Part shown: positions 18,034-33,721 of the stretch, one piece after another | How the letters are laid out: each line of letters starts with the position of its first letter | How positions within the stretch are numbered: the stretch's first letter is position 1 | Origin: Clostridiales bacterium | GTDB taxonomy: Bacteria > Bacillota > Clostridia > Caldicoprobacterales > DTU083 | Assembly: GCA_012839095.1 (NCBI GenBank) | Contig: DUOA01000137.1 | Span: forward strand, 1 to 44,500 | Length of the DNA stretch: 44,500 bases | Direction: 5' to 3' | Made by a program: the position numbers and the translations under genes | The notes under the pieces: generated by a model | The model's database searches: none | What the model was told of the DNA's origin: nothing | The model's input: only the letters and a program-made list of their open reading frames with translations

Positions 18034-18065
18034 TTGATGATGTTTGTGTAAAGATGGTATATAAT
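18034..18065 (+). promoter_or_regulatory. Promoter directly abutting the radical SAM start codon
   Basis: TTGATG (18034-18039) precedes the overlapping -10 candidates TATATA (18058-18063, preceded by TGG) and TATAAT (18060-18065). Transcription would start at about 18070-18072, the A of the likely ATG. Confidence 0.6.
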
Positions 18066-18071
18066 ACACTT

Positions 18072-19811
18072 ATGAGAATTATTTTAGCAGCACTGAATGC
18101 AAAATTTATACACAGCAGCCTGGCTTTAAGAAGCTTGAAGGCATACTGCACAGCTTATCATCCGGGAATTTCCATAAGGGAGTTTACTATAAACGATTCC
18201 AGGGCTCATATCGTCGCATCCCTGGTTGACTGTAGACCGGACTTGCTGTGTTTTTCCTGTTATATTTGGAATATCCGGCAGACCCTTGATATCGCTGAGA
18301 CAGTCAGAAAAATTCTGCCGGAATGCAAAATTGTGTTGGGCGGCCCGGAGGTTTCTTACGACAGTGAAGCCTTAATGGGGGAGAATCCGTATATTGATTT
18401 CATTATCGCCGGTGAAGGAGAGCAAACCTTTCTTGAATTCCTGAATCGCTGTAAAGAAGGTACTGAATTCGATGGAATAAAGGGCTTGAGCTGGCGAAGA
18501 GATGGCAGAACAGTGCAAAACGATCCCCGTCAGCCAATTTCACTTGATTCTGTGCCCTTTGCTTATCAGGATGGATTTCAGGATCTTAAGAATCGGATAA
18601 TATATTACGAAACTTCCCGAGGTTGTCCTTATCAATGTCAATACTGCCTGTCTTCAACTACCGGCCGCGTTCGATTTCTATCCATGGACAGGGTAAAGGA
18701 AGAGCTGGCATATTTTGTCCGTTCAGGAATCAAACAGGTGAAATTAGTCGATCGCACCTTTAACTGCAAACCGGATAGGGCAAAGGAAATTTTCACATTC
18801 CTGATCAATCTGGGGGGAAACACCAATTTTCACTTTGAAATGGCCGGTGATCTGATTGACGAAGAAATGCTGATGATATTATCACGGGCTCCTGAGGGCA
18901 TGTTTCAATTTGAAATCGGAGTCCAATCCACTAATGAGATGACACTGGAATCAATCCGAAGAAAGAGCAATCTGACCAGGCTTGAATCTTCCGTAAGACG
19001 TCTTATAGAAATGGATAATATCCACATCCACCTTGATTTGATAGCAGGACTGCCTAATGAGGACCTTTCATCCATGGCCCGTTCCCTGAATCAGGTTATG
19101 AAGCTTTCACCTCACAGACTACAGCTGGGGTTTCTGAAGCTGCTTAAGGGTTCGGGTCTGCGAGAAGCTGCCCGGAAATATGAATATAAATATACCTCTT
19201 ATCCCCCCTATGAGGTATTATCCAATCATGTGATGTCCTTTTCTGAGCTGATTCGTCTGAAACAGATGGAAGAGCTGATAGAATTGTATTATAATTCACA
19301 TCGTTTTGAGCGTTCCATTGAGTATCTGGCAGGGCAGCTGGGAGGAGACTACTATCATTTGTTTAATGGAATGGTGGATTTTTGGCGAAGCAACGATTAT
19401 TTTCAGTATTCGCACAGCATTCTGACACTCTATGAGTATCTGCTGGCATATGGCTCCATGCTGCCGCTTACTGATATGCAGCTGTTCAGGGAATTGCTCA
19501 GGTTTGATTATGTACTTCACGAAAAACCCAGCAGATACCCGAAAGGTCTGGAGCCGCTGCCTGATCGGGAGAAGATAAGTCAATGTCATGAATTTTTGCG
19601 CCGTGAAGAAAACCTGGAAAAGATTCTGCCCCTATGGAAGGGGCGTACCCCCGGACAGATACTTAGAAGAATACAGCTGGAGATCTTTCAATATCGTATG
19701 AATTTGCATGGAAGGGCAGCCTATCAAAAGGAGCAGACTGTACTGCTGTTTGATTATCAGACCAGGCATGGAGTTCTGCGAAGGCCGAAAATCATACCCC
19801 TAAACATATAA
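18072..19811 (+). CDS. B12-binding domain radical SAM protein (DUF4080 type)
   Basis: This 579-residue protein combines an N-terminal cobalamin-binding-like Rossmann domain (about 1-140, with IVLGGPEVSYD and IIAGEGEQTF) and a radical SAM barrel. The CxxxCxxC cluster motif is C185, C189, C192 in RGCPYQCQYC. A C-terminal region (about 380-579) fits the DUF4080 family. Members are presumed Fe-S/SAM enzymes of unknown substrate. ATG 18072 is chosen because the family begins at MRIILAALNAKFIHSSLALR (shown to its 20th residue); the in-frame ATG at 18054 lies upstream of the -10 element. No ribosome site precedes 18072, so a leaderless transcript is possible. Family call firm, function unknown. Confidence 0.9.
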   Translation: MRIILAALNAKFIHSSLALRSLKAYCTAYHPGISIREFTINDSRAHIVASLVDCRPDLLCFSCYIWNIRQTLDIAETVRKILPECKIVLGGPEVSYDSEALMGENPYIDFIIAGEGEQTFLEFLNRCKEGTEFDGIKGLSWRRDGRTVQNDPRQPISLDSVPFAYQDGFQDLKNRIIYYETSRGCPYQCQYCLSSTTGRVRFLSMDRVKEELAYFVRSGIKQVKLVDRTFNCKPDRAKEIFTFLINLGGNTNFHFEMAGDLIDEEMLMILSRAPEGMFQFEIGVQSTNEMTLESIRRKSNLTRLESSVRRLIEMDNIHIHLDLIAGLPNEDLSSMARSLNQVMKLSPHRLQLGFLKLLKGSGLREAARKYEYKYTSYPPYEVLSNHVMSFSELIRLKQMEELIELYYNSHRFERSIEYLAGQLGGDYYHLFNGMVDFWRSNDYFQYSHSILTLYEYLLAYGSMLPLTDMQLFRELLRFDYVLHEKPSRYPKGLEPLPDREKISQCHEFLRREENLEKILPLWKGRTPGQILRRIQLEIFQYRMNLHGRAAYQKEQTVLLFDYQTRHGVLRRPKIIPLNI

Positions 19812-20153: not shown

Positions 20154-21776
20154 ATGAAAAAACGCATCATATTGATGGCGATCCTGATAGTACTGCTTGC
20201 TGCGGGAGGATATGGGGCATATTTCTGGCACCAAATCAACAATCCGGAGGATTTGTTTGAGATTCCGGACAACAACATTAATCCATCAGAAAAGCCTGGC
20301 CCGGCTGATGAAACAACTGAGCCAACCATAGAACCCTATGAGTTTACTGAAAAGAGGCTTAATCTGCTGCTTCTTGGATTGGATGCCGATGAATACAGGT
20401 ACAAGAAGATGGGTGCTTTCAGGACCGACACAATTATGCTGGCCTCCATTGATTTTACCCAGAACAGTGTTGAACTGATTTCAATTCCCAGGGACAGTTA
20501 TGTTAAAATCCCGGGGAGAAAAGAAAAGGGAAGGGTGAATGCGGCCTTTGTATACGGCGGCGGATTCAAAGGCGAAGGATTTGCCACAACCATACAAACG
20601 GTAAGTGATCTACTCGGGGGCATAACAATTCAGTATTATGCCGCAATAGACATGAATGTTTTCGTGGAGATTATAGATGCTTTAGGAGGAATTACCTATG
20701 AAATAGATGTACCGGTTTCCAGTGCAGGTATCCAGCCGGGTCTTCAAAAGCTTGACGGAAAACAAACACTGGCCTATGCACGGCATAGAAAGACTCCAGG
20801 AGGAGATATCGACAGGGTTGACCGCCAGCAGCGTCTGATGCTGGGCATTTTGGAGCAGTTGAAATCGACCGATTCATTGAAAAAGCTGCCTAAAATATAC
20901 GAGGCAGTCAAGGATGATGTCTGGACAAATCTGAACATAAGGCAGATTGCTGCGTTGGCCTTATTTGCCGCCAGATTGGATATGGAGAACCTAAACAGGC
21001 ATATGATACCGGGTACATATCTGGACATGGATAATATCAGCTATTGGGGCATAGACCAGAAGAAAAAGAATCAGCTGGTTAATGAATTGTTTGGTTTAAA
21101 TATTACAGAATATGACAAGGAAGATGACGTATATTATATCAAGGCACAACTGCGCAAGAAGCTTAATGATATGAAAAAAGCTATACAGGATTGGGTATCC
21201 GGGGCATTGAGGATTCTCAGTGATTACGAAAATGTCCTGCTGGAGGAAGAACGTTCTGAATTGGAATCCGGCATACTGATGCTGGATGAAGCGCTTGAAA
21301 AGGGCGATGTGGAAAATGCAGAAGACATTCTGCAGGAGATGAAAGACTATCAGGTCAGTCTGACTCCTCAGCTGGAGAATAGAAAAACGATATTCCTGGA
21401 CGCTCGGGCTGTATTGTCGATGGTGGAGGAGCAATATGCCCTTTATTCAGAAAGGATTACAGAGGATGATACGGAAATCCTAAGCAGCATCATTCACTCA
21501 CTGCGTCAAAAGATGGAGAAAAAACAATTTACGGAAATTTCTCCTGCTGCTTTGGAATTGAAATCCTTCTGGAACAGTCTGAAAGAAAGACTGGATGATC
21601 AAGCCTATCCATTACCTACTCAGGTGCCGTCACCTGAGCCTGAGGAGTCACCGACACCATCTCCATCGGATCAGCCGACAGACAATCCTGATCCCGATAC
21701 AACCCCGTCTCCCACGTCTGAGCCAACTGAGGCACCGACAGAAGGGCCTGACGAAGATGAAGGCAATGAAGGGTGA
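20154..21776 (+). CDS. LytR-CpsA-Psr (LCP) family protein with C-terminal extension
   Basis: LCP enzymes transfer undecaprenyl-linked polymers (teichoic acid, capsule) to peptidoglycan outside the membrane. This 540-residue protein has an N-terminal membrane anchor (about 5-24) and an LCP domain (about 75-270). The domain has the conserved FRTDTIMLASID, SIPRDSYVKIPG and AYARHRKTPGGDIDRVDRQQ segments, including the arginines that bind the pyrophosphate. After it comes an acidic helical region (about 320-475) and a Pro/Thr/Ser/Glu-rich tail (about 483-540). The last two parts are not standard for the family and look like a wall-spanning spacer. The start ATG 20154 has GGGGGACAGGAAG upstream. 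The gene seems monocistronic, with a new promoter before the next gene. Confidence 0.9.
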   Translation: MKKRIILMAILIVLLAAGGYGAYFWHQINNPEDLFEIPDNNINPSEKPGPADETTEPTIEPYEFTEKRLNLLLLGLDADEYRYKKMGAFRTDTIMLASIDFTQNSVELISIPRDSYVKIPGRKEKGRVNAAFVYGGGFKGEGFATTIQTVSDLLGGITIQYYAAIDMNVFVEIIDALGGITYEIDVPVSSAGIQPGLQKLDGKQTLAYARHRKTPGGDIDRVDRQQRLMLGILEQLKSTDSLKKLPKIYEAVKDDVWTNLNIRQIAALALFAARLDMENLNRHMIPGTYLDMDNISYWGIDQKKKNQLVNELFGLNITEYDKEDDVYYIKAQLRKKLNDMKKAIQDWVSGALRILSDYENVLLEEERSELESGILMLDEALEKGDVENAEDILQEMKDYQVSLTPQLENRKTIFLDARAVLSMVEEQYALYSERITEDDTEILSSIIHSLRQKMEKKQFTEISPAALELKSFWNSLKERLDDQAYPLPTQVPSPEPEESPTPSPSDQPTDNPDPDTTPSPTSEPTEAPTEGPDEDEGNEG

Positions 21777-21809
21777 ACAGGGCAAGCGCCGGCCAGGAGA
21801 TAGAGGTAC

Positions 21810-21838
21810 TTTCTTTTGCTAAGCAAAAAGTGTATAAT
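21810..21838 (+). promoter_or_regulatory. Promoter of the PocR-AraC regulator with inverted repeat
   Basis: TATAAT at 21833-21838 has a weak -35 (TTTCTT) 17 bp upstream. The spacer holds the inverted repeat TTTTGC TAA GCAAAA (21814-21828), a possible binding site, perhaps for autoregulation. Confidence 0.5.
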
Positions 21839-21878
21839 ACAAAATGAACAGTGACATCTTATGGAGGAATACATGTAG

Positions 21879-23192
21879 ATGAAAGAGTGGGACAACATCC
21901 ACCTGGAGGATGTTATTGACATAGATGAAATGAAAAAAATACTGAATTCATTTATACTTGCAACCGGTCTGGGTGCTATCTGCGTCAATGATAAGGGTGA
22001 ATCAGCCATTGTACCGGAAGAGCATGAAGCCTATTGTTCTTTCTGCAAAATTATACGCAGCGATCCGGAAGGACGAAGGCGTTGTGCCGATTCAATGAAC
22101 AAGGCAGGTAAACTTGCCGCCAAACTGGGTGAACCATACATCAGCCGCTGCCATGCCGGTTTGATTGAATTTGCCGCACCTATTCTTTTTAATGATATCT
22201 ACCTGGGGAGCATTTCCTGCGGCCCTGTACTCATGTGGGAGTGGGATGAAATTGCCATCCAGGAATTTTTGAATCTGACTGCGGACTTGAACATAAACCG
22301 CGAGGCCTTACTGGCAGCCAGCAGGGAAATCAAGGTGCTTACCGGTAGAAATGTACAGGCTGCAGCTGAGCTTTTATATATCACAGCCAATCACTTTGCA
22401 AAATCCAGCATAATTACCCTGCAGCAAAGAAAGGAATTAAGCGAGCAGCAGTCCAGGCTGGCTGAAATGATTTTTGAGCATAAGAAAGCCGAAGAGCGTA
22501 TCCGCTTACTGGAGGAACGGGTTAAATGTGAAGATTACCCCATGGATAAGGAAAATGAGCTTCTGAGCAATGTTCGAATGGGTGATCGAACCGGGGCAAA
22601 AAAAATACTCAACGAACTTCTGGCTGTCATTTTTCTTCGTTCCTCCGGGAATATTGAGCTAATTAAAGCCCGGGTTCTGGAGCTGGTAATTGTTATCTCC
22701 CGGGCGGCTGTGGAAGGCGGAGCCAGTCTGGACAAGCTGTTAGGGCTCAACTACAGCTTTATAAGTGAACTGGCCGAAAAAAACCGCTTTGAAGATATCT
22801 GCTCTTGGATTGTAAAAGTGCTGGATACATTTCTGGATACGGTGTATGAATCCAGGAACATTAAGAATTCTGCTTTGCTGGGGGAAGCTGTCAGATATAT
22901 CAGGGAAAACTACAACGAAAATCTTTCCCTGGAGGATGTTGCCCAGAAAGTCTTTATCAGTCCCTATTACCTGAGCCATCTGTTCAGGGAGGAACTTGGC
23001 ATTACTTTCCTGGAATACCTAACCCGCATAAGGATTGAGGAAGCGAAGAAGCTGCTGCAGGACAGAAGTCTTACTATTTTTGATATCTCTGCCCGGGTGG
23101 GATACGAAGATCCGGGATATTTCAGTAAGGTATTCAAGAAGAACATGGGGGTTTCACCAAATCAATACCGGAAAAATACCGCTCAGGGATAA
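21879..23192 (+). CDS. PocR-domain AraC-family transcriptional regulator
   Basis: This 437-residue regulator has an N-terminal PocR sensory domain (about 10-175) with conserved cysteines C53, C56, C69 and C91 in CSFCKII, RRRCADS and RCHAGLIEFAAPI. A helical linker (about 185-335) follows, then a C-terminal AraC double helix-turn-helix (about 338-435), with LSLEDVAQKVFISPYYLSHLF and the signature ending DPGYFSKVFKKNMGVSPNQYR (both shown in part by family motif). PocR domains occur with cobalamin-dependent catabolism and one-carbon systems and are thought to bind small hydrocarbon derivatives. The next gene encodes a corrinoid protein 102 bp away, so this is probably its activator. The start ATG 21879 has GGAGG 11 bp upstream, and the ATG at 21872 is closed at once by a stop. 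Confidence 0.9.
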   Translation: MKEWDNIHLEDVIDIDEMKKILNSFILATGLGAICVNDKGESAIVPEEHEAYCSFCKIIRSDPEGRRRCADSMNKAGKLAAKLGEPYISRCHAGLIEFAAPILFNDIYLGSISCGPVLMWEWDEIAIQEFLNLTADLNINREALLAASREIKVLTGRNVQAAAELLYITANHFAKSSIITLQQRKELSEQQSRLAEMIFEHKKAEERIRLLEERVKCEDYPMDKENELLSNVRMGDRTGAKKILNELLAVIFLRSSGNIELIKARVLELVIVISRAAVEGGASLDKLLGLNYSFISELAEKNRFEDICSWIVKVLDTFLDTVYESRNIKNSALLGEAVRYIRENYNENLSLEDVAQKVFISPYYLSHLFREELGITFLEYLTRIRIEEAKKLLQDRSLTIFDISARVGYEDPGYFSKVFKKNMGVSPNQYRKNTAQG

Positions 23193-23294
23193 TTCGCAAG
23201 ATTTTACCGGTTATCACAATAATTAATAGAGACTATAAGATTCTTGTATGTTATTATAGAAACAACTGTCATTACAAAAAAGGAGGAAGACAAA

Positions 23295-23927
23295 ATGGCA
23301 AATTTGAGAGAAATTGCTGACTTTCTAAAAGCCGGTAATGCTCCCAAGGTAAAAGAATTGGTACAAGCTGCCATAGATGAAGGGGTAGAACCTACTGACA
23401 TTTTAAACGAAGCCCTCATCGTTGGCATGGGAGAAATTGGAGTATTGTTTAAAAACAACGAGGTATATGTTCCCGAGGTGCTCATAGCTGCAAGAGCTAT
23501 GAAGGCAGGCATGACAATCATCAAACCTTTGCTGGTTGAAAAGGATGTCAAACCCGCCGGTACCGTAGTGATCGGCACCGTAAAAGGCGATCTCCATGAT
23601 ATCGGTAAGAATCTAGTTGCCATGATGATGGAAGGCGCAGGCTTCCAGGTTATTGATCTGGGAATAGACGTACCCCCGGAAAAGTTTTTGGATGCAGTAA
23701 AGGAACATCAGGCAGAATGTGTTGCCATGTCAGCACTGCTGACCACTACCATGCCCGGCATGAAAGATACCATTGAAACCTTTAAGGCAGCTGGTCTGAG
23801 AGATCAGGTAAAGATTATGGTGGGCGGAGCTCCTGTTACACAGAACTTCTCAGACGAAATTGGTGCAGACGGATATGCTCCGGATGCAGCATCAGCTGCA
23901 GAGCTGGCAAAGGAATTAATTGCCTGA
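23295..23927 (+). CDS. Corrinoid (cobalamin-binding) methyl-carrier protein
   Basis: This 210-residue protein of the MtaC/MttC/MtbC family carries the methyl group on a corrinoid between a substrate methyltransferase and an acceptor. It has an N-terminal four-helix cap (1-85) and a Rossmann-type B12 domain with the base-off ligand motif D99-x-H101-x-x-G104 in KGDLHDIGKN. It continues with SALLTTTM and MVGGAPVTQNFSDEIGADGYA (family pattern, shown in part), the standard lower-ligand pocket. ATG 23295 follows AAGGAGG; an in-frame ATG at 23244 lies before that site. The gene ends at a strong terminator with no methyltransferase beside it, so its substrate (methanol, methylamine, betaine or methoxy compound) is open. 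Confidence 0.93.
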   Translation: MANLREIADFLKAGNAPKVKELVQAAIDEGVEPTDILNEALIVGMGEIGVLFKNNEVYVPEVLIAARAMKAGMTIIKPLLVEKDVKPAGTVVIGTVKGDLHDIGKNLVAMMMEGAGFQVIDLGIDVPPEKFLDAVKEHQAECVAMSALLTTTMPGMKDTIETFKAAGLRDQVKIMVGGAPVTQNFSDEIGADGYAPDAASAAELAKELIA

Positions 23928-23995
23928 TTGAAAGCAATAGATTCAATCCAATAGATGGCAGACTCATTAATACAAGGATAGCAGGATAAGTGTAT

Positions 23996-24030
23996 AAAGC
24001 ATCTGCGGTTTGCAGATGCTTTATTTTACC
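23996..24030 (+). terminator. Strong terminator after the corrinoid protein gene
   Basis: An 11-bp perfect stem AAAGCATCTGC / GCAGATGCTTT with a 5-base loop (GGTTT) is followed by ATTTTACC. It separates the corrinoid gene from the following envelope/RACo operon, though it could be partial. Confidence 0.88.
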
Positions 24031-24078
24031 AAAGAATTGGGCAGAATGTAGAAAGCAATGTAAAAAAGGAGTATTCAA

Positions 24079-26382
24079 GTGATACGAAGGCTGGCTTTCA
24101 TTCTGTTATTTCTGCTGTTCTTGTATATGGCGCTGTCTATATACTCCTGTTCTCCTCTAAAATCGGGGTTAAGAGGATTGAACAACACCATGCAGACCCT
24201 TCAGACGGGCTCATACCATGAAACCTTTATTGATACGAAGATGCCTGAGACGGGGAAAACACTCTTAATTATCATAGATCGCATAAGTTTGTCTGATCTG
24301 TTACGGGCAGATACCCCCAATCTTGACTCTCTCATGGAGAAAGGCGGTATTGGGCTGATGACAACCAATACCGGCGGCAGCCGATCCCAGAAAGATGCTT
24401 ATCTTACTATGGGAGCGGGCACAAGGGTTTCCGCTTCCGATAAATCTCCACTTGGGCTGCAGGCCGATGAGACTTATCAGGGGAGTATGGCCGGCATCTT
24501 ATATCGGCAGATTACGGGAATAGCTGCCCCGGAAGCTTCCATAGTAAACCTTGGATTTACCCAGGCAGTCCGCAATAATGTTAACAGACCCTATACCGTA
24601 ACAATCGGTGCCCTTGGAACGGCATTGCGTCAGGCTGGAATCCGTTCGGCTGTTATCGGCAATTGCGATACACCCGGCACATTTAAAAGATATCTGGTCT
24701 CCCTTCTGATGGACAACCAGGGCCTTGTTCCTGCCGGTATTGTTGATCAAAGCCTTCTGGTCGAAGCTCCTACGCGCCCTTTTGGCATATGCACAGATTA
24801 CAGCAAGCTGATGCAACAAGTAAATCGTCTATGGGATTCTACCGATGTTTTTGCCATACAACTGGGTGACACCTCCCGGGCGGAGGACTTCCGCTATGAG
24901 GCGACGGATTACATGAATGATCATTACAAAAAGACAGCCATTGAAGAAAGTGATGTCTTCCTGGGTGAATTGGTCCGAAAACTGGATTGGAAACGGGATC
25001 GAATACTGATTGTTACGCCGCTGGGACCTGCAAGGGATTTGGCTGAAAACAACAGGCTGACACCGGTAATCATTGCCGGTGCAGGTTATACAAAAAGTCT
25101 TTTGTCGTCTGCCTCTACGCAAAGAGACGGTATTGTAACCAATCTGGATATAGGCGCAACAATACTGAACTTCTATGGGATCCCGCACTATGGAGGCCAG
25201 CTGGGAGCAAGGATTTATTCCTCCCGGAAAGTCATGGAACCGGAAGAACTTCTGAAATACAATATAAGGCTTAAGGAAATCAACAACCAACGCACTCCTC
25301 TGCTGAGAAGCTATGTAACCGTGTTGATTTTCCTGCTTGCAGCATCCTTGCTGAGTATATTCTGCTTCAGCCAGTTTCTTGATTACGCATCCGGTTTTCT
25401 GATATTTATAATGGCTGTCCCCGTTTCTTACCTGTTTCTCCCTCTTTTTCACCGTTCTGCATTTGTCGGGTGTTTCCTATTGTCCTGGGCGCTGGCACTT
25501 ATTATAACCGTGCTGGTGTCTATGGTAAAAAGGCGTACAATATCAGCAATAGGGATAATATGCCTGACAACGGCTGCATTTATTGCGGGGGATCAATTTA
25601 TCGGAGGCCGCCTGATTGCAGGCTCGCCTTTGGGTTATGATATCATAAGCGGAGCCAGGTATTACGGCATGGGAAACGAGTATATGGGTATTTTTATAGG
25701 AGCGGTATGTACAGGAATTGGTGCTGCATGCGAGCTGTTGGGCAGGAAGAGCAGTTCAGGCACAGTCTGGCTATCCCTGCCTTTATTTGCTGTTTCCCTT
25801 TTGGTTGTTGCCCATCCGGGGCTGGGAGCCAATGTAGGTGGGGCGGTTTCCATGCTGTTTGCAGCGGCTTCTTTTATTATCCTGAGCCGTAAAGGTAAAA
25901 TTAGTATTAAGCATATATTGATAGTTGGTGTGGCTGCGGCTGCATTTATCATAGTGCTTTTCATGTTTGACAGCAGCCGTGCCATTGACAGTCAATCGCA
26001 TATGGGGCAGACCGTATCATTGATACGAAAAAACGGTATGTTTGAGCTTTTTCATATAGCCAGGCGGAAAATTGATATGAATATCAGATTGTTCCGCTAT
26101 ACTATCTGGACCCGGGTTTTTCTATTATCCTTGTTAACCATGGTATTACTGCTTTTTCGTCCGGTAGGACTGCTCAGAGAAACTGCGGAGAAGTATCCAT
26201 TTTTTGTGAGAGGGATCGCTTCAGGAGTGGCAGGATGCATCATAGCCTTGCTTACTAATGATTCCGGCATTGTCGCAGCAGGTACATCCATGATCTATCT
26301 TGTACCGCCCCTGCTGATGATTGTCATTAACCGGCTGAATCAGCGGGAAGTCAGGCAGCTGCGGAAGGAGCAATCCGGATGA
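24079..26382 (+). CDS. Membrane protein with alkaline-phosphatase-like ectodomain
   Basis: This 767-residue protein has an N-terminal signal-anchor (about 4-24), a large extracytoplasmic region (about 40-395) and about nine to ten membrane segments to the end (first near 413-430). The ectodomain looks like an alkaline phosphatase/phosphoglycerate mutase superfamily fold: LLIIIDRISLSDLLRADTPNLDSL opens with the metal-binding aspartate (D67), followed by GGSRSQKDAYLTMGAGTR and RDRILIVTPLGPARD. The last segment lacks the usual DH pair, so activity is uncertain. The start is GTG 24079 with AAGGAG 6 bp upstream. The gene overlaps the glycosyltransferase by ATGA. A role in an envelope polymer pathway is inferred from that partner. 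I do not recognise a named family for the membrane half. Confidence 0.72.
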   Translation: MIRRLAFILLFLLFLYMALSIYSCSPLKSGLRGLNNTMQTLQTGSYHETFIDTKMPETGKTLLIIIDRISLSDLLRADTPNLDSLMEKGGIGLMTTNTGGSRSQKDAYLTMGAGTRVSASDKSPLGLQADETYQGSMAGILYRQITGIAAPEASIVNLGFTQAVRNNVNRPYTVTIGALGTALRQAGIRSAVIGNCDTPGTFKRYLVSLLMDNQGLVPAGIVDQSLLVEAPTRPFGICTDYSKLMQQVNRLWDSTDVFAIQLGDTSRAEDFRYEATDYMNDHYKKTAIEESDVFLGELVRKLDWKRDRILIVTPLGPARDLAENNRLTPVIIAGAGYTKSLLSSASTQRDGIVTNLDIGATILNFYGIPHYGGQLGARIYSSRKVMEPEELLKYNIRLKEINNQRTPLLRSYVTVLIFLLAASLLSIFCFSQFLDYASGFLIFIMAVPVSYLFLPLFHRSAFVGCFLLSWALALIITVLVSMVKRRTISAIGIICLTTAAFIAGDQFIGGRLIAGSPLGYDIISGARYYGMGNEYMGIFIGAVCTGIGAACELLGRKSSSGTVWLSLPLFAVSLLVVAHPGLGANVGGAVSMLFAAASFIILSRKGKISIKHILIVGVAAAAFIIVLFMFDSSRAIDSQSHMGQTVSLIRKNGMFELFHIARRKIDMNIRLFRYTIWTRVFLLSLLTMVLLLFRPVGLLRETAEKYPFFVRGIASGVAGCIIALLTNDSGIVAAGTSMIYLVPPLLMIVINRLNQREVRQLRKEQSG

Positions 26383-27524
26383 AGATAATGGAAATCATAA
26401 GAGCTGCCGAAGGCGGAATGAAGGAGCATTATATCACTTTGGTCAAGGGGATGGCCGGGAGAGGCGCAGAGGTAACTGCCCTGGGTGAATTTTCCGGGGA
26501 AAGCAGGGCAGAGCTTTTGGATGCAGGGGTTTTGGTGATTCCCTTCTTTCTCCCGGGAAGAATCAATCCTTTTACTGACTGCATACGTATTATCCGGATA
26601 ATTTCCCTGATTCGGAAGACAAAACCGGATATTATACATTGCCATGGTTTCAGGGCCGGCTTCACAGGAAGGTTAGCCGGCTGGATTTCAGGTGTGCCAA
26701 TGCTGTATACTGTACATAATTTTACTGCATATAAACGAAGTAAATTTGAAAAATGGCTTATTGCCGCTTTTGAAGGCTGGATGGGCAGGAAGACTGATGG
26801 AATTATATGCGTATCCCGCGCCCTGAAAAAAAACATGCTGGAAGAGGCGGGAGTGCCGCAGGAAAAATTGCATGTGATTTATAACTCCCTTCCGGCTTGG
26901 CAAGCAGGTGACAGGAAGTATGTAAGAGTAAAATACAATATTGATGAGAACTGCATTCTGATAGGAACAGCATCCAGACTTATTCCGTCGAAGGGTACAG
27001 GTATACTGTTAAGGGCAGCAGCAGGCATAATTCCGATTTTTCCCCATGTCAGACTGATGATTACAGGAACGGGACCGGAAGAATCCAGGCTGCGGGACTT
27101 GGCAGATTCCCTGGGAATTGCTCCACAGACTGTTTTTACAGGCAGGGTATCAAATATGCAGGATTATTATGCTGCTTTTGACTTATTCGTTTTGCCTACC
27201 TTATCCGAAGGGCTTGGCATGGCGGTTATCGAAGCCATGGCAGCAGGATTGCCGGTTATAGCAACAGCAGTAGGAGGTATTCCTGAGTGGATAGTTCACG
27301 AGCGAAATGGATATCTGGTAAGGCCGGACAACGTATTTGATTTGCGAACCGCCTTGCAGAGTTTTCTGGAGGAGCCTGAAAAGTTTGCACAATATGGCAG
27401 CCAGGCAAAAATAGATATACAGGAAAATGGATTAACAGAACTGGAAATGGTTGATAAAACATTATCCGTGATTCGGATGGCATGCAACAAAAATCAGAAG
27501 AGAAAAAAGGGGAATAAATTATGA
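26379..27524 (+). CDS. GT4-family glycosyltransferase
   Basis: This 381-residue GT-B fold enzyme transfers a sugar from a nucleotide donor. The N-terminal Rossmann domain contains the glycine-rich AAEGGMKEHYITLVKGM loop and PDIIHCHGFRAGFTGRL. The C-terminal domain has IGTASRLIPSKGTG, VFTGRV and the donor-binding E-x7-E region LPTLSEGLGMAVIEAMAAGLPVIAT (key glutamates in SEGLG and VIEAM). The start ATG overlaps the preceding stop, and its own stop overlaps the start of the RACo-like gene, so all three are coupled. The acceptor may be a lipid-linked envelope precursor, given the membrane partner. The substrate is not known. Confidence 0.9.
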   Translation: MKIMEIIRAAEGGMKEHYITLVKGMAGRGAEVTALGEFSGESRAELLDAGVLVIPFFLPGRINPFTDCIRIIRIISLIRKTKPDIIHCHGFRAGFTGRLAGWISGVPMLYTVHNFTAYKRSKFEKWLIAAFEGWMGRKTDGIICVSRALKKNMLEEAGVPQEKLHVIYNSLPAWQAGDRKYVRVKYNIDENCILIGTASRLIPSKGTGILLRAAAGIIPIFPHVRLMITGTGPEESRLRDLADSLGIAPQTVFTGRVSNMQDYYAAFDLFVLPTLSEGLGMAVIEAMAAGLPVIATAVGGIPEWIVHERNGYLVRPDNVFDLRTALQSFLEEPEKFAQYGSQAKIDIQENGLTELEMVDKTLSVIRMACNKNQKRKKGNKL

Positions 27525-29320
27525 ACACACAAAAGACAGAAGTGAGACACGGTGAGAATCTGCTGGACTACTTGAGGGAAAAGGGCAACCGCCTAGCTTC
27601 ACCCTGCGGCGGGAAAGGAGTATGCGGCAAATGTCGTGTTCGAATTCTGGAGGGTGAAAAAACATTAGGCCGGCCTTATCCGGGAATGCGGGGAATCACA
27701 CTGGATGAATGGGAAAAAGGCTGGCGGCTGGCCTGCAAGACCATGATGGAAGAGGAAATGACGGTAGAAATACCTGATATGTGGAATACGGAAGCCAATA
27801 TTCTGACCAGCGGGGATTATGAGGTGACCTTGCAGCCATGTATTCAGAAGATCTACCTGGACCTTCCCAAACCATCCATAGAGGATCAGACCAGTGATGC
27901 GGATCGTCTCTTACGTGCTCTGGGCAGGGGGGAGATATCGGATCTGTCTCTTGTGCAGCTGCTTCCTGAAATTATGGAGAAGAATGGGTACAAGGTAACT
28001 GCAGTACTTAATGGAAATACAGTGATTGGAGTGGAAAGCGGTGACACCACCAAATGCTGTTATGGTGTGGCCGTGGATATTGGTACTACGACTATCGTGG
28101 GCACACTCATTGATTTGTGCACCGGCGATGAAATCGCCATTTATTCCACTTTGAATCCGCAAAAGATGTACGGGGATGACGTTATATCCCGTATAAGTCA
28201 TACAATAGAAAATAAAGATGGGCTAAAAAAGCTGCAGCAGACTGTTTTGGAAAGCCTGAATACAATGTTTGATTTTTTTGAACAAAAATATAATATTTCA
28301 GCAGAGAATATTTATCATGTTAATTTTGTGGGGAATACTGTAATGATTCATCTGCTTGCAGGTCTGCCTGTGGAAAACATAGCCTCTGTTCCCTTTCAGC
28401 CGGTGGTCACCAGCTTACCTAATATCCAAAGCAGGGATCTGGGACTGAATATAAATCCAAATGCAGTTATTACATCTCTGCCAATGATTGCAAGCTATAT
28501 AGGGGCTGATACAGTCGCATGCATATTGGCTACTGACATGCTGGAGGAATCAGGATATTCGCTGTTGGTGGACATAGGTACCAACGGTGAGATTGCCCTG
28601 GGAAACAAGGAGGGACTGCTGGCATGTGCCACTGCAGCCGGACCGGCTCTGGAAGGAGCACATATACAGTGCGGCATAGGTGGAGTACGAGGCGCTGTCA
28701 ATAAAATTGAACTGAACGAAAATGGTGTATCCTATACCACAATAGGGGACCAGCCGGCAATCGGTATTTGCGGTTCGGGGATTGTGGACGTGGTAGCCCA
28801 TATGATCAATAAGGGATTGATTGACTCTTACGGCCGTCTTCTGTCGGCTGATGAAGCATCCGAGTTTCTGGCCCCTGAACTGGCATTGAGAATAGGCGAA
28901 TATAATGGAAAACCTTCTTTTTTAATAGCTGCAAAGGAAGAAGGGGCCGGCAACGAGATATTTATAACACAAAAGGATGTCCGGGAAATCCAGTTGGCGA
29001 AAGCAGCTATTGCTGCAGGTATACAAATACTTATGCAGGAGATGCAAGTTGAATTTGACGATATACAAAAGGTATACCTTGCCGGTGGATTCGGCAACTA
29101 CATCAACCATGATCATGCCATGATAATAGGGCTGCTGCCTGCGGAATTAAAGGGAAAAGTTGTACCCGTGGGAAATGCCGCACTGACCGGAGCAAAAATG
29201 GTGATGAAGTCCGTTGGTTTTATGGACGCTGCTGAGCAGATAAAAAAATCCACCAGATATATCGAGCTGTCTACCAGACTGGATTTTCAAAACATCTTTG
29301 TAGATAATATGGAATTTTGA
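27521..29320 (+). CDS. RACo-like corrinoid activator (2Fe-2S ferredoxin + ASKHA, DUF4445)
   Basis: Proteins of this type use ATP to reduce inactive Co(II) corrinoid proteins back to Co(I). The 599-residue product has an N-terminal plant-type 2Fe-2S domain with ligands C29, C35, C38 and C72 (SPCGGKGVCGKC and LACKT). A middle region is followed by an ASKHA ATPase fold opening with VAVDIGTTTIVGTLIDL near residue 184. Further motifs are YIGADTVACILA, LLVDIGTNGEIALG, GICGSGIVDV and AGGFGNYIN. The start ATG overlaps the GT4 stop (ATGA). The natural client is the corrinoid protein encoded 3.6 kb upstream. Being coupled to a glycosyltransferase is odd. Orientation is convergent with fabI, 21 bp away. 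Confidence 0.9.
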   Translation: MNTQKTEVRHGENLLDYLREKGNRLASPCGGKGVCGKCRVRILEGEKTLGRPYPGMRGITLDEWEKGWRLACKTMMEEEMTVEIPDMWNTEANILTSGDYEVTLQPCIQKIYLDLPKPSIEDQTSDADRLLRALGRGEISDLSLVQLLPEIMEKNGYKVTAVLNGNTVIGVESGDTTKCCYGVAVDIGTTTIVGTLIDLCTGDEIAIYSTLNPQKMYGDDVISRISHTIENKDGLKKLQQTVLESLNTMFDFFEQKYNISAENIYHVNFVGNTVMIHLLAGLPVENIASVPFQPVVTSLPNIQSRDLGLNINPNAVITSLPMIASYIGADTVACILATDMLEESGYSLLVDIGTNGEIALGNKEGLLACATAAGPALEGAHIQCGIGGVRGAVNKIELNENGVSYTTIGDQPAIGICGSGIVDVVAHMINKGLIDSYGRLLSADEASEFLAPELALRIGEYNGKPSFLIAAKEEGAGNEIFITQKDVREIQLAKAAIAAGIQILMQEMQVEFDDIQKVYLAGGFGNYINHDHAMIIGLLPAELKGKVVPVGNAALTGAKMVMKSVGFMDAAEQIKKSTRYIELSTRLDFQNIFVDNMEF

Positions 29321-29341
29321 CGAGAAACGAGACGACAGCCT

Positions 29342-30112
29342 TCAATAACCTATTATATGATATCCGGCATCAACATGAATATTTTCTCCGGTTATTCCCC
29401 GTGAAAGATGGCTTAACAGAAAGAGGGCCGTGTCTCCGACTTCCTGCTGATTTACAGTTCTGCGGAGAGGGGCTTTCTCTTCATACAGGCTGAGAACAGA
29501 GTTGAAATCCTTTACTCCTTTGGCAGATACCGTCTTAATCGGACCAGCGGAAATGGAATTTACCCGGATTCCTTCAGGACCCAGGTCGTTGGCCAGGTAT
29601 CGGACAGAAGCTTCCAATGCTGCTTTGGCAACACCCATAACATTATAGTTCCTGACTGCACGTTCGGCACCCAGGTAGGTCAGAGTCAGGATACTGCCCC
29701 CTTCTGTCATCAGGGGTCTCGCTTCTCTGGAAACAGCCGCCAGAGAGTAGGAGCTGATGTTTTGAGCCAAAAGATATCCTTCACGGGAAGTATCGTAGTA
29801 TTTTCCGCCAAGCTCAGAACCTTTGGCAAAAGCCACCGAGTGGACAAGTCCGTGAAGAATGCCATGATCAGTCTGAATGGACTGGAATAACCGGCTGATT
29901 TCCTCGTCGGAGCTTACATCGCAGGGATACAGGGAAACATCCGGGATACCGGAAGCCAGCTGTTCAATACCGGCCCTGGCTCTCTCGTTCTGATAGGTGA
30001 GAATCAGCCTGGCTCCTGCTCCGGCGCAGGACTCTGCTATGCCCCATGCTATACTCCATTTGTTTGCTGCCCCCATAATCAATATGGTTTTGTTCTTAAG
30101 CAGTCCAGTCAT
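29342..30112 (-). CDS. fabI: Enoyl-[acyl-carrier-protein] reductase FabI
   Basis: This is the last reductive step of each fatty acid elongation cycle, using NAD(P)H. The 256-residue SDR enzyme has the FabI nucleotide motif (MGAANKWSIAWGIA) and the Y-x6-K active site: Y156 and K163 in YNVMGVAK with Y146 before it, the same numbering as E. coli FabI. Segment RVNSISAGPIKT and the C-terminal GENIHVDAGYHIIG are typical. The start ATG 30112 has AAGGAAGG upstream. It is transcribed alone, divergent from tig, and convergent with the RACo-like gene without an obvious terminator between them. Confidence 0.96.
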   Translation of the reverse strand: MTGLLKNKTILIMGAANKWSIAWGIAESCAGAGARLILTYQNERARAGIEQLASGIPDVSLYPCDVSSDEEISRLFQSIQTDHGILHGLVHSVAFAKGSELGGKYYDTSREGYLLAQNISSYSLAAVSREARPLMTEGGSILTLTYLGAERAVRNYNVMGVAKAALEASVRYLANDLGPEGIRVNSISAGPIKTVSAKGVKDFNSVLSLYEEKAPLRRTVNQQEVGDTALFLLSHLSRGITGENIHVDAGYHIIGY

Positions 30113-30185
30113 AAGAAACCTTCCTTTCAGGGTTTATTGTCGGCTGTATAATGGCTAACCGAACTATATGAAATGAATTTCTACT

Positions 30186-30215
30186 ATTATATAACAGTAT
30201 GGAGCAAAAGGGCAA
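30186..30215 (-). promoter_or_regulatory. Promoter of fabI
   Basis: On the minus strand TTGCCC (30215-30210) and a perfect TATAAT (30191-30186) are 18 bp apart, about 74 bp upstream of the fabI ATG. Confidence 0.6.
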
Positions 30216-30237
30216 TAAAAATGTCTTATCGGCGCTA

Positions 30238-30266
30238 TTGCAATCAATTATCAAGTGTGTTAAGAT
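30238..30266 (+). promoter_or_regulatory. Promoter of the tig-clpP-clpX operon
   Basis: TTGCAA (30238-30243) and TAAGAT (30261-30266) are 17 bp apart. The leader of about 135 bases contains the inverted repeat ACCCGG-AA-CCGGGT (30325-30338). No CIRCE or CtsR box was seen. Confidence 0.5.
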
Positions 30267-30406
30267 ACACCTTAGGAATTTTTGTATCCGTTATCTGTTA
30301 TTTGCATGTTAACAGGTTAGAGATACCCGGAACCGGGTTATGATATATTACTGAAGGACAATGAATAACAGCTAGCTTCTGACGGATAATTAAGGAGGAC
30401 ATATTG

Positions 30407-31819
30407 GTGAAGGTTACTAAAGAGATCCTGGAGAGCAAAAAGGTAAGATTGGAAATCCACGTAGACCCGGAAACATTTGAAGAGGGAATGCAAAAATCTT
30501 ATATAAAAAACCGTAAAGGAATAACCATTCCCGGGTTCCGCAAAGGGAAAGCCCCCAGAAAGATAATCGAAAGATACTATGGTGAGGCTATTTTTTATGA
30601 GGATGCTATAAATGAAGTATTTCCCAAGGTATATGATGAAGCGGTTAAGGAAACCGGCATTGAACCGGTTGCCATGCCGGATGTGGATATTGTTCAGATC
30701 GGGGATGGCCAGCAGTTGATTCTGACTGCTGACGTCGATGTAAAACCTGAAGTACAGCTTGGACAGTACAAGGGCATAGAAGTAGAGAAAGTTGAGTATA
30801 CTGTATCGGACCACGATGTGGAACATCAACTGGAGCATATCCGGGAAGACAATGCCCGTTGGATTAATATAGAAGATCGCAGCATACAAAACGGAGATCT
30901 GGTTACCTTGGATTATGCAGGCACCATAGACGGCGAGGCCTTTGATGGCGGCACTGCTGAAAAACAGACTTTGGAGATTGGTTCCGGCCGCTTTATACCC
31001 GGCTTCGAAGAGCAGCTTACAGGTCTGAGTCTCGAGGAAGAGAAGGATATTACCGTAACTTTTCCCGAGGATTATCATGCAGAGGAACTCAAAGGCAAAG
31101 AAGCAGTTTTCCATGTTAAAATACATGAAATCAAAGAAAAGGAACTGCCTGCTTTGGACGATGAATTCGCCAAGGATGTCAGTGAATTTTCATCGCTGGA
31201 AGAATATAAGGCGGACCTTAAAAGAAAACTTGTGGAAAGTGCCGAGCAAAATGCCAGGAGTCAGATGGAAAATCAGCTCCTGTCCAAAATAACAGAAAAT
31301 GCCACAGTTGACATTCCGGACGTTATGATAGAAAATGAGATTGACAGCCTTGTGCAGGATATGGAAATGCGCATGCGCTACAGCGGACTTAGTCTCCAAA
31401 ATTATCTGGAGATGAGTAATACATCGCTGGAGGAATTCAGGGCACAATACAGAGATAATGCATACAATAGAGTTAAGACCAGGCTGGTGCTGGAGGCTGT
31501 TACCAAAGCAGAGGATATTACTGTAACCGATGAAGATCGGGAAAAGGAATACCAAAAACTGGCAAAACAGTATCAGAGGGATGTCGAGGAAATTAAGAAG
31601 ACTTTTGCTGCCAACTCCGAATATATGGATGACAGCGTCCTGGTTCAAAAAACCATTGATTTTCTGTTGGAATCGGCAGTAATGGTTGAGCCGGAGGAAG
31701 ACAAAACCGATGCTTCCGCCGCTGAACACGATCACGGCCATGAACACCGGGAACCGGACCAGGCAGAGGCTGAGAAGCAGCAGACTGAAGGGGTAGAAGA
31801 ACAGTCGAACAATGAGTAA
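30407..31819 (+). CDS. tig: Trigger factor (ribosome-bound chaperone, PPIase)
   Basis: This 470-residue chaperone binds nascent chains at the ribosome exit. The N-terminal domain holds the ribosome-docking signature (TIPGFRKGKAPRKIIERYYG, key GFRKGKAP). The FKBP-type PPIase domain spans about 155-240 (GDLVTLDYAGTIDGEAFDGG, key residues DYAG and FDGG). The C-terminal arms are helical. An extra acidic tail of about 40 residues contains HDHGHEH. GTG 30407 is preferred to TTG 30404 because AGGAGG (30393-30398) then has 8-base spacing and the protein starts MKVTKEIL like its relatives. clpP follows after 12 bp, so tig-clpP-clpX form the standard operon. Confidence 0.97.
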   Translation: MKVTKEILESKKVRLEIHVDPETFEEGMQKSYIKNRKGITIPGFRKGKAPRKIIERYYGEAIFYEDAINEVFPKVYDEAVKETGIEPVAMPDVDIVQIGDGQQLILTADVDVKPEVQLGQYKGIEVEKVEYTVSDHDVEHQLEHIREDNARWINIEDRSIQNGDLVTLDYAGTIDGEAFDGGTAEKQTLEIGSGRFIPGFEEQLTGLSLEEEKDITVTFPEDYHAEELKGKEAVFHVKIHEIKEKELPALDDEFAKDVSEFSSLEEYKADLKRKLVESAEQNARSQMENQLLSKITENATVDIPDVMIENEIDSLVQDMEMRMRYSGLSLQNYLEMSNTSLEEFRAQYRDNAYNRVKTRLVLEAVTKAEDITVTDEDREKEYQKLAKQYQRDVEEIKKTFAANSEYMDDSVLVQKTIDFLLESAVMVEPEEDKTDASAAEHDHGHEHREPDQAEAEKQQTEGVEEQSNNE

Positions 31820-31831
31820 GGAGGAGTTTTT

Positions 31832-32416
31832 ATGAGTCTCGTGCCGATTGTTGTTGAACAGACTAACCGGGGGGAAAGATCCTATGATATATTCTCCCGT
31901 TTGCTGAAGGAAAGAATTGTATTTTTAGGTGAAGAGGTCAACGATGTAACAGCCAGCCTGGTTGTTGCACAGCTTTTGTTCCTCGAATCCGAGGATCCCG
32001 ACAAAGAAATCAAGCTTTACATAAATAGCCCTGGAGGTTCCATATCTTCCGGCTTTGCTATTTATGATACCATGCAATATATTAAGTGTGATGTTTCTAC
32101 CATTTGTATCGGTATGGCTGCTTCCATGGGAGCATTCCTGCTTGCTGCAGGTACCAAGGGAAAGCGGTTTGCTCTTCCCAATAGTGAAATTATGATTCAT
32201 CAGCCTATGGGGGGAACCCGGGGGCAGGCCTCCGATATTGCAATCCATGCAGAACATATTCTAAAAATGAAAAAGACCCTGAATACAATCCTGGCTGAAA
32301 GGACAGGCCAGCCATTGGAGAAGATAGAAAGAGACACTGACCGGGATAATTTTATGTCTGCTCAGGAAGCTAAGGAATATGGTCTGATTGACGAGGTTAT
32401 TTTTCCCCGCAAATAG
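31832..32416 (+). CDS. clpP: ATP-dependent Clp protease proteolytic subunit
   Basis: This is the serine peptidase of the ClpXP machine, 194 residues. The catalytic triad is S98 (GMAASMG), H123 (MIHQPMGG) and D172 ([11 protein letters not shown]). The hydrophobic N-terminal start [19 protein letters not shown] (family-typical) shows no long propeptide. The start ATG 31832 follows AAGGAGG. It is located between tig and clpX with short gaps, the common clostridial order. Confidence 0.98.
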
Positions 32417-32434
32417 TTGATTAGAGGTGAAGAA

Positions 32435-33721
32435 ATGGCAAGATATGAGGACAAGAAGCAGCTTAAATGCTCTTTTTGCGGTAAAACCCAGGACCAGGTA
32501 AGACGTCTTGTTGCCGGCCCTGGAGTTTATATCTGCGATGAATGTATAGATTTATGCCAGGAAATTATAGAAGAAGAATTTGAAGATGCTTCCGAGCTGG
32601 AATTGAAGGATATTCCAAAACCATCGGAAATAAAGCAGATATTGGATCAGTATGTTATCGGTCAGGAGCATGCAAAAAAAATTCTGGCCGTTGCGGTATA
32701 CAATCATTACAAGCGCATAAACAGTGACATAAGAAATGACGATGTGGAATTACAAAAGAGCAACATTGTCATGCTGGGGCCTACAGGTTCCGGAAAAACC
32801 CTGCTGGCACAGACTCTGGCAAAAATACTGAACGTACCCTTTGCAGTAGCAGATGCTACATCGCTTACAGAAGCAGGATATGTGGGAGAAGATGTGGAGA
32901 ATATTCTGCTTAAGCTGATTCAGGCTGCTGATTATGATATTGAAAGAGCCGAAAAAGGGATTATATACATTGATGAAATAGACAAGATAGCCAGAAAATC
33001 TGAGAATCCTTCCATTACAAGGGATGTTTCCGGAGAAGGGGTACAGCAGGCGCTGCTTAAAATCCTGGAGGGAACCGTCGCCAGTGTTCCGCCTCAGGGC
33101 GGACGCAAGCATCCTCATCAGGAGTTTATTCAGATTGATACAACGAATGTGTTGTTTATCTGCGGAGGAGCCTTTGACGGTATAGACAAGATAATACAGA
33201 ATCGAACCGGGAAAAGATCCATTGGATTCGGGGCGGATATCCGCAGTAAATCCAGCCAGGATATAGGCGAGATCCTTCAAAAGATTCTACCCGAGGATCT
33301 GCTGAAGTATGGGCTCATTCCTGAATTTGTAGGCAGACTGCCCATCGTGGCCACCCTCAATGCCCTCGATGAGGATGCTCTTGTAAAGATTCTCAAAGAG
33401 CCTAAGAACGCTTTGGTTAAGCAGTATCAAAAGCTCTTTGAGATGGACGGGGTGATACTGGAATTTGACGAGGAAGCCCTGGGACTTATTGCCCAAAAAG
33501 CTATCGAGCGTAAAACCGGTGCGAGGGGGCTGAGGGCTATTCTGGAGGATATCATGCTTAATGTCATGTATGAAATTCCTTCCCGGGATGATATAGAAAA
33601 ATGTGTAATCACAAAAGACACCATTTTGAATCGTCAGGAACCCATGCTGATTATTGCTGATAGTCAAAAGCCGAGAAAATCAGCAAAAAAGCCTAAAGAA
33701 AAGAAGGAAACAGCATCCTGA
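32435..33721 (+). CDS. clpX: Clp protease ATP-binding unfoldase ClpX
   Basis: This hexameric AAA+ unfoldase feeds ClpP and has 428 residues. The N-terminal zinc domain has C12, C15, C34 and C37 (CSFC, CDEC). Walker A is GPTGSGKT (about 114-121), Walker [10 protein letters not shown], and the sensor 2 region is [13 protein letters not shown]. The ClpP-docking IGF-type loop reads [11 protein letters not shown] 32435 has GAGGTGA just upstream; a TTG at 32417 directly after the clpP stop would be a poorer start. A terminator lies 29 bp after the stop. Confidence 0.98.

Follow-up and report, generated by a model that had tools for sequence, protein, structure and literature searches.

Three-component corrinoid systems, as in the O-demethylases and glycine betaine operons, consist of MT I, a carrier, MT II and RACE; usually, each substrate has a dedicated operon and carrier. 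In Phaeobacter inhibens, a split methionine synthase works with RamA-like (DUF4445) reactivation, a function shown by fitness data (PMC5764234), and in Ruegeria pomeroyi MtgC/MtgD are common to methionine synthesis and glycine betaine demethylation (PMC12478193). In type 1 mlp clusters, MtaA-like URO-Ds share a single carrier and a single Ram/RACE; these clusters hold at least two Mlps, a carrier and a Ram in one direction with at most 2 kb between them (PMC10418091).

The locus analysed here lies in a window of 44,500 nucleotides, which is the entire contig C90 of a 2.74-Mb draft genome (169 contigs, 96% complete) of a Clostridiales bacterium. The original prediction had named a PocR-AraC regulator, a corrinoid carrier with a DxHxxG motif and a 2Fe-2S/ASKHA activator; their domains and the carrier motif DLHDIG bore this out. 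All five genes of the locus (PocR/AraC, carrier, membrane protein, GT4 and RACo) were confirmed in place and run in the same direction:

21879..23192, + strand: PocR-sensor/AraC-type regulator (PF10114 1.4e-45, HTH_18 6.1e-26)
23295..23927, + strand: free-standing corrinoid carrier of 210 aa (PF02310 4.9e-31, PF02607 6.3e-20)
23994..24024, + strand: intrinsic terminator 3′ of the carrier, then a T-run (13-bp stem, -19.9 kcal/mol, z = -5.7)
24079..26382, + strand: conserved membrane protein of 767 aa, here called APmem (no Pfam or NCBIfam match)
26379..27524, + strand: GT4 glycosyltransferase (PF00534 9.3e-37), conserved in position, with a 4-bp overlap at each end
27521..29320, + strand: RACo-type ATP-dependent corrinoid reductive activator (PF14574 2.1e-77, PF17651, PF17650, Fer2)

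The true start of the carrier gene was placed at 23295 by the ribosome-binding site AAGGAGG, leaving a gap of 102 bp to the PocR gene, whose product probably regulates the carrier. The carrier is composed of a B12-binding cap and a B12-binding domain, and its nearest solved structure is 1y80, a Moorella corrinoid protein. As to substrate class, it scored below cut-off against the NCBIfam models MtgC_2 (232 vs 370 bits), pyl_corrinoid (212 bits) and MtbC (204 bits). The carrier transcription unit was correctly predicted to end at a terminator. Overlaps of 4 bp join the genes for the membrane protein, GT4 and RACo, which therefore resemble a single coupled operon distinct from PocR-carrier; RACo comprises Fer2, linker, middle and C-terminal domains. 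The label “alkaline-phosphatase-like” for the membrane protein found no backing in Pfam or NCBIfam. In an Rfam scan that covered the window and six loci, no cobalamin riboswitch exceeded the threshold, the only matches being two tRNAs in the window, a T-box in L030 and a TPP riboswitch in L012, and the number of sites in a promoter scan was not above that in shuffled sequences. A B12-binding radical SAM protein with DUF4080, which is corrinoid-linked, is encoded at 18054-19811 of the window and also lies near the locus in most family genomes.

As originally claimed, no methyltransferase gene was found within 20154-33721 of the window. We therefore compared the locus with the rest of the genome. 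The window carrier was the one match to PF02607, the cap domain shared by methyl carriers and MetH, in this draft, from which a further carrier could be missing, and the window RACo was the one match to PF14574; further carrier-methyltransferase operons with their own activators were not encountered. MttB (PF06253) was absent, PF00809 was present in two proteins, and PF01208 gave 25 matches at E <= 1, of which those exceeding the Pfam cut-off represent roughly 20 genes spread over many contigs. PF01208 (URO-D) is the superfamily of MtaA, MtbA and the O-demethylases. Overall, the genome holds, in part as candidates, the same four kinds of component as the three-component systems: carrier and reductive activator in the window, a methyl-tetrahydrofolate:corrinoid acceptor methylase (MeTr) on contig C93, and the ~20 URO-Ds as substrate-methyltransferase candidates. 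Unlike in those systems, the locus itself holds only carrier and activator, in single copy for all candidates. Of the two explanations offered originally for a locus without partners, service to several distant methyltransferases fits a sole carrier and sole RACo with MeTr, a MetH without B12 domain and ~20 URO-Ds elsewhere, while an unrecognised partner is unnecessary and not supported.

The MetH in question is a 554-aa protein encoded on contig C24, with PF02574 and PF00809 and without PF02310/PF02607; it ends after the pterin domain and aligns to metH 3-595 of 1182. Its gene overlaps the cobalt-transport gene cbiO downstream of cbiM, an order (cbiM-cbiO-metH) repeated in three relatives (G001, G004 and G008). 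A cobalamin-type MetH that lacks this B12 domain depends on a separately encoded carrier, of which the genome yielded one. Similar to the P. inhibens system, homocysteine and pterin domains are thus encoded separately from a free cap and B12-binding carrier, reactivation is of the DUF4445/RACo type, and the parts are dispersed in the genome. In P. inhibens, however, the two domains form separate proteins, whereas here they are fused, and a MeTr/formate branch and ~20 URO-Ds are added; moreover, P. inhibens is an aerobic alphaproteobacterium with fitness data, whereas the present system is known from sequence alone. In two other genomes (L193 in G015, L195 in G014), a full-length MetH-type protein of 898 aa has as its neighbour a protein of 595-605 aa that combines a homocysteine-methyltransferase domain with a weak MetF-like part.

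MeTr (266 aa) scored 367 bits against a cut-off of 259 for the NCBIfam methyltetrahydrofolate:corrinoid methyltransferase model. Its operon, ordered metF-like, etfB, etfA, MeTr, formate/nitrite transporter (FNT) and formate-THF ligase (fhs), is a folate methyl branch and is kept, complete or partial, in four relatives (G001, G004, G006 and G007). Judged by gene content, this branch would more likely end in formate than in acetyl-CoA because no CoFeSP was found among the 13 family genomes, in which PF03599 cross-matched just MeTr and the MetH pterin domain.

Among the URO-Ds, the highest-scoring one, on contig C107, retains the MtaA-type His-x-Cys...Cys ligands; about nine others have HxCG and no final Cys, and the remainder have Asp or other residues at these sites. 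By a published rule, an intact zinc triad points to substrates with sulfur or selenium, and substituted ligands point to oxygen (PMC10418091). The top match of the window-genome URO-D profile among solved structures was MtaA (4ay7), and the UroD-type R[QM]xGR motif was found in none of the URO-D genes by motif search; two URO-Ds were modelled (pLDDT 82.6 and 80.0), and the models matched UroD and MtaA alike and gave no discrimination. As most URO-Ds lack the full MtaA-type zinc triad, they count as candidate corrinoid methyltransferases. Two weak matches were set aside, one to a CimA-like protein (C130) and one to a 118-aa fragment at a contig end (C21:4-288), and the URO-Ds on C40 and C6, 97.2% identical over 1,091 bp, may be one locus. 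The neighbours of the URO-Ds on C125, C116, C169, C22, C21, C40 and C135 (L015, L019, L017, L023, L018, L021 and L029) resemble, as read from sequence, glycoside hydrolases, sugar ABC/TRAP transporters, a sulfatase and GntR/LacI/AraC regulators. Such neighbourhoods hint that the substrates are sugars carrying methyl groups, or related methyl ethers. Although the C107 protein has the His-Cys-Cys ligands typical of type 1 mlp clusters, the window locus holds no Mlp and does not belong to that class, with no URO-D in it and carrier and RACo 3.6 kb apart. Nor does it belong to the glycine betaine MtgB/MtgC systems (PF06253 is absent and the carrier falls below the MtgC_2 cut-off) or to AcsV/CoFeSP activation (CoFeSP is absent). 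By inference, one carrier would serve a split MetH and a demethylation route, as in R. pomeroyi; the substrate there is glycine betaine, whereas here there is no MttB-family protein and the candidate donors are URO-Ds.

In relatives, the arrangement of the locus is conserved. The order across the family (13 genomes) is PocR, carrier, membrane protein, GT4, RACo, FabI, trigger factor and ClpP; it was retained, complete or partial, in G001-G008, with some copies broken by contig ends. The PocR gene immediately precedes the carrier gene in most of the family and at the loci L093 and L094, RACo is linked to the carrier throughout the family, and APmem stays between carrier and GT4/RACo across the family as well as in G015 and L093. 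The membrane protein and GT4, originally regarded as an interruption, thus form a conserved arrangement together with RACo. Two family members, G009 and G010, have a carrier of another clade with RACo and PocR (L086/L087), together with a hydantoinase/oxoprolinase-like protein of 695 aa and a Met_synt_B12-like protein. The single-contig genome G009 has no URO-D, and its RACo is split in two frames.

Four syntenic loci contain partner genes, among them L093 and L094 of two near relatives. L093 reads PocR, MeTr, carrier, Fhs, FTCD_C, FolD, one further gene, APmem and RACo, with a carrier 79% identical to that of the window, a MeTr 73% identical to the one on C93 and an Fhs at 77%; its FTCD_C gene is FchA-type. 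L094 reads FNT, PocR, MeTr, carrier (77%), Met_synt_B12-like protein and RACo, its MeTr being 73% identical. In G015, PocR and carrier are followed by divergent URO-D and CobW genes, a truncated MetH (562 aa, 46% identical to the C24 protein), APmem, a GT4-like gene, two genes, RACo, FabI and trigger factor. A 3.4-kb contig of G012 (C47) carries PocR, a His-Cys-Cys URO-D (80% identical to the C107 URO-D), carrier and RACo, but may be a contaminant, the genome being 6% contaminated and otherwise holding a MetH with its own B12 domain. Each partner class that is dispersed in the window genome therefore adjoins the carrier in some relative. A methyltransferase beside a syntenic version of the locus, which the original prediction had named as its refutation, does occur, in a milder form, as the MeTr of L093/L094, the truncated MetH and URO-D of G015 and the URO-D of G012. 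The window locus is a variant, with dispersed partners, of an arrangement already known, and not a system lacking a methyltransferase. The G015 URO-D (L175:4493-6783), divergent from the carrier, has a C-terminal thioredoxin-like domain (weak, below cut-off) and overlaps the gene of a CobW-type GTPase, a pair that recurs in G013, G014 and G017.

We consider it likely that the locus is the shared carrier and reactivation hub of a dispersed corrinoid methyl-transfer network that includes a split methionine synthase. This reading draws on features of sequence, namely gene content, single copies, the missing B12 domain, conserved operons and partner adjacency in relatives. Co-occurrence of carrier and partner genes is not interaction, and we infer the docking with each partner, the direction of methyl flow, the substrates and the use of the carrier by most of the ~20 URO-Ds.

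The numbers of carriers and URO-Ds across genomes bear on this reading. URO-D matches ranged from 0 to 32 per genome in the 13 family genomes, and many URO-Ds with one carrier were also seen in G004, G014 (6 contigs; 10 URO-D matches, a single free carrier and one MetH that includes a B12 domain), G017 (25 matches) and G020 (15 matches), a small sample for which we claim no significance. G023 and G024 have neither free carrier nor URO-D. A carrier without URO-D was present in four genomes (G008, G009, G019 and G022), so the carrier has other uses and the rule that it exists for URO-Ds fails. The homocysteine-methyltransferase domain was not found in G006, G007, G009 and G010, and no single partner class is universal.

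An alternative explanation is that the split MetH and MeTr alone are served by carrier and RACo, as their B12 and reactivation modules, and that the URO-Ds do not use the carrier. The truncated MetH, placed in a cobalt operon here and next to the carrier in G015, would agree with this, as would URO-D-free genomes that keep the carrier, such as G008 with its truncated MetH, and the zinc triad missing from many URO-Ds. We nevertheless regard it as unlikely, because G006 and G007 keep the carrier with no homocysteine domain found, a URO-D adjoins the carrier in G015, on the G012 contig and in 28 of 91 sampled carriers, and the URO-D profile matches MtaA best. It is much less probable still that a separate carrier accompanies every URO-D cluster and went missing in gaps of the draft: the genome is in 169 contigs and several URO-Ds lie near contig ends, but the single free carrier recurs in the many-URO-D genomes G014, G017 and G020, and most URO-Ds with complete neighbourhoods have no carrier nearby. 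Activation by RACo of the CoFeSP of the Wood-Ljungdahl pathway, with the carrier nearby by chance, would agree with AcsV as the top NCBIfam match of RACo, though below cut-off (447 vs 800 bits), but is largely refuted, since no CoFeSP was found in the 13 family genomes and the RACo-carrier linkage holds across the family.

If the locus is a shared hub, the carrier would hold the corrinoid and RACo would use ATP and its 2Fe-2S centre to return inactivated Co(II) to Co(I). Each URO-D would demethylate its own substrate and thereby methylate the Co(I) carrier, from which MeTr would pass the methyl to tetrahydrofolate; there MetF/Etf would oxidise it, Fhs would take it further to formate, and the formate would pass through FNT. 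The truncated MetH would borrow the carrier between methyl-folate and homocysteine. A further-reaching, hub-and-spoke form of this reading, which we put forward tentatively and at somewhat less than even chances, is that one carrier and one activator take methyls from ~20 substrate-specific URO-D demethylases and deliver them to methyl-folate (formate, ATP) and, via the split synthase, to methionine, new substrates being gained by one added URO-D gene without a new carrier. Many URO-Ds in sugar-catabolism neighbourhoods would then perhaps act on methyl ethers such as O-methylated sugars. Both the split MetH with reactivation of RamA type and the sharing of an MtgC have been described before, and what would be new here is the scale of carrier sharing.

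If true, orphan URO-D genes in anaerobes could be read as interchangeable demethylase modules, and URO-D substrates could be screened against one purified carrier. Looking next door for the carrier, which is the usual rule, would miss such URO-Ds. The genome would also offer a case, in a bacterium of anaerobic type, where a cobalamin methionine synthase apparently relies on a demethylation system for its B12 domain.
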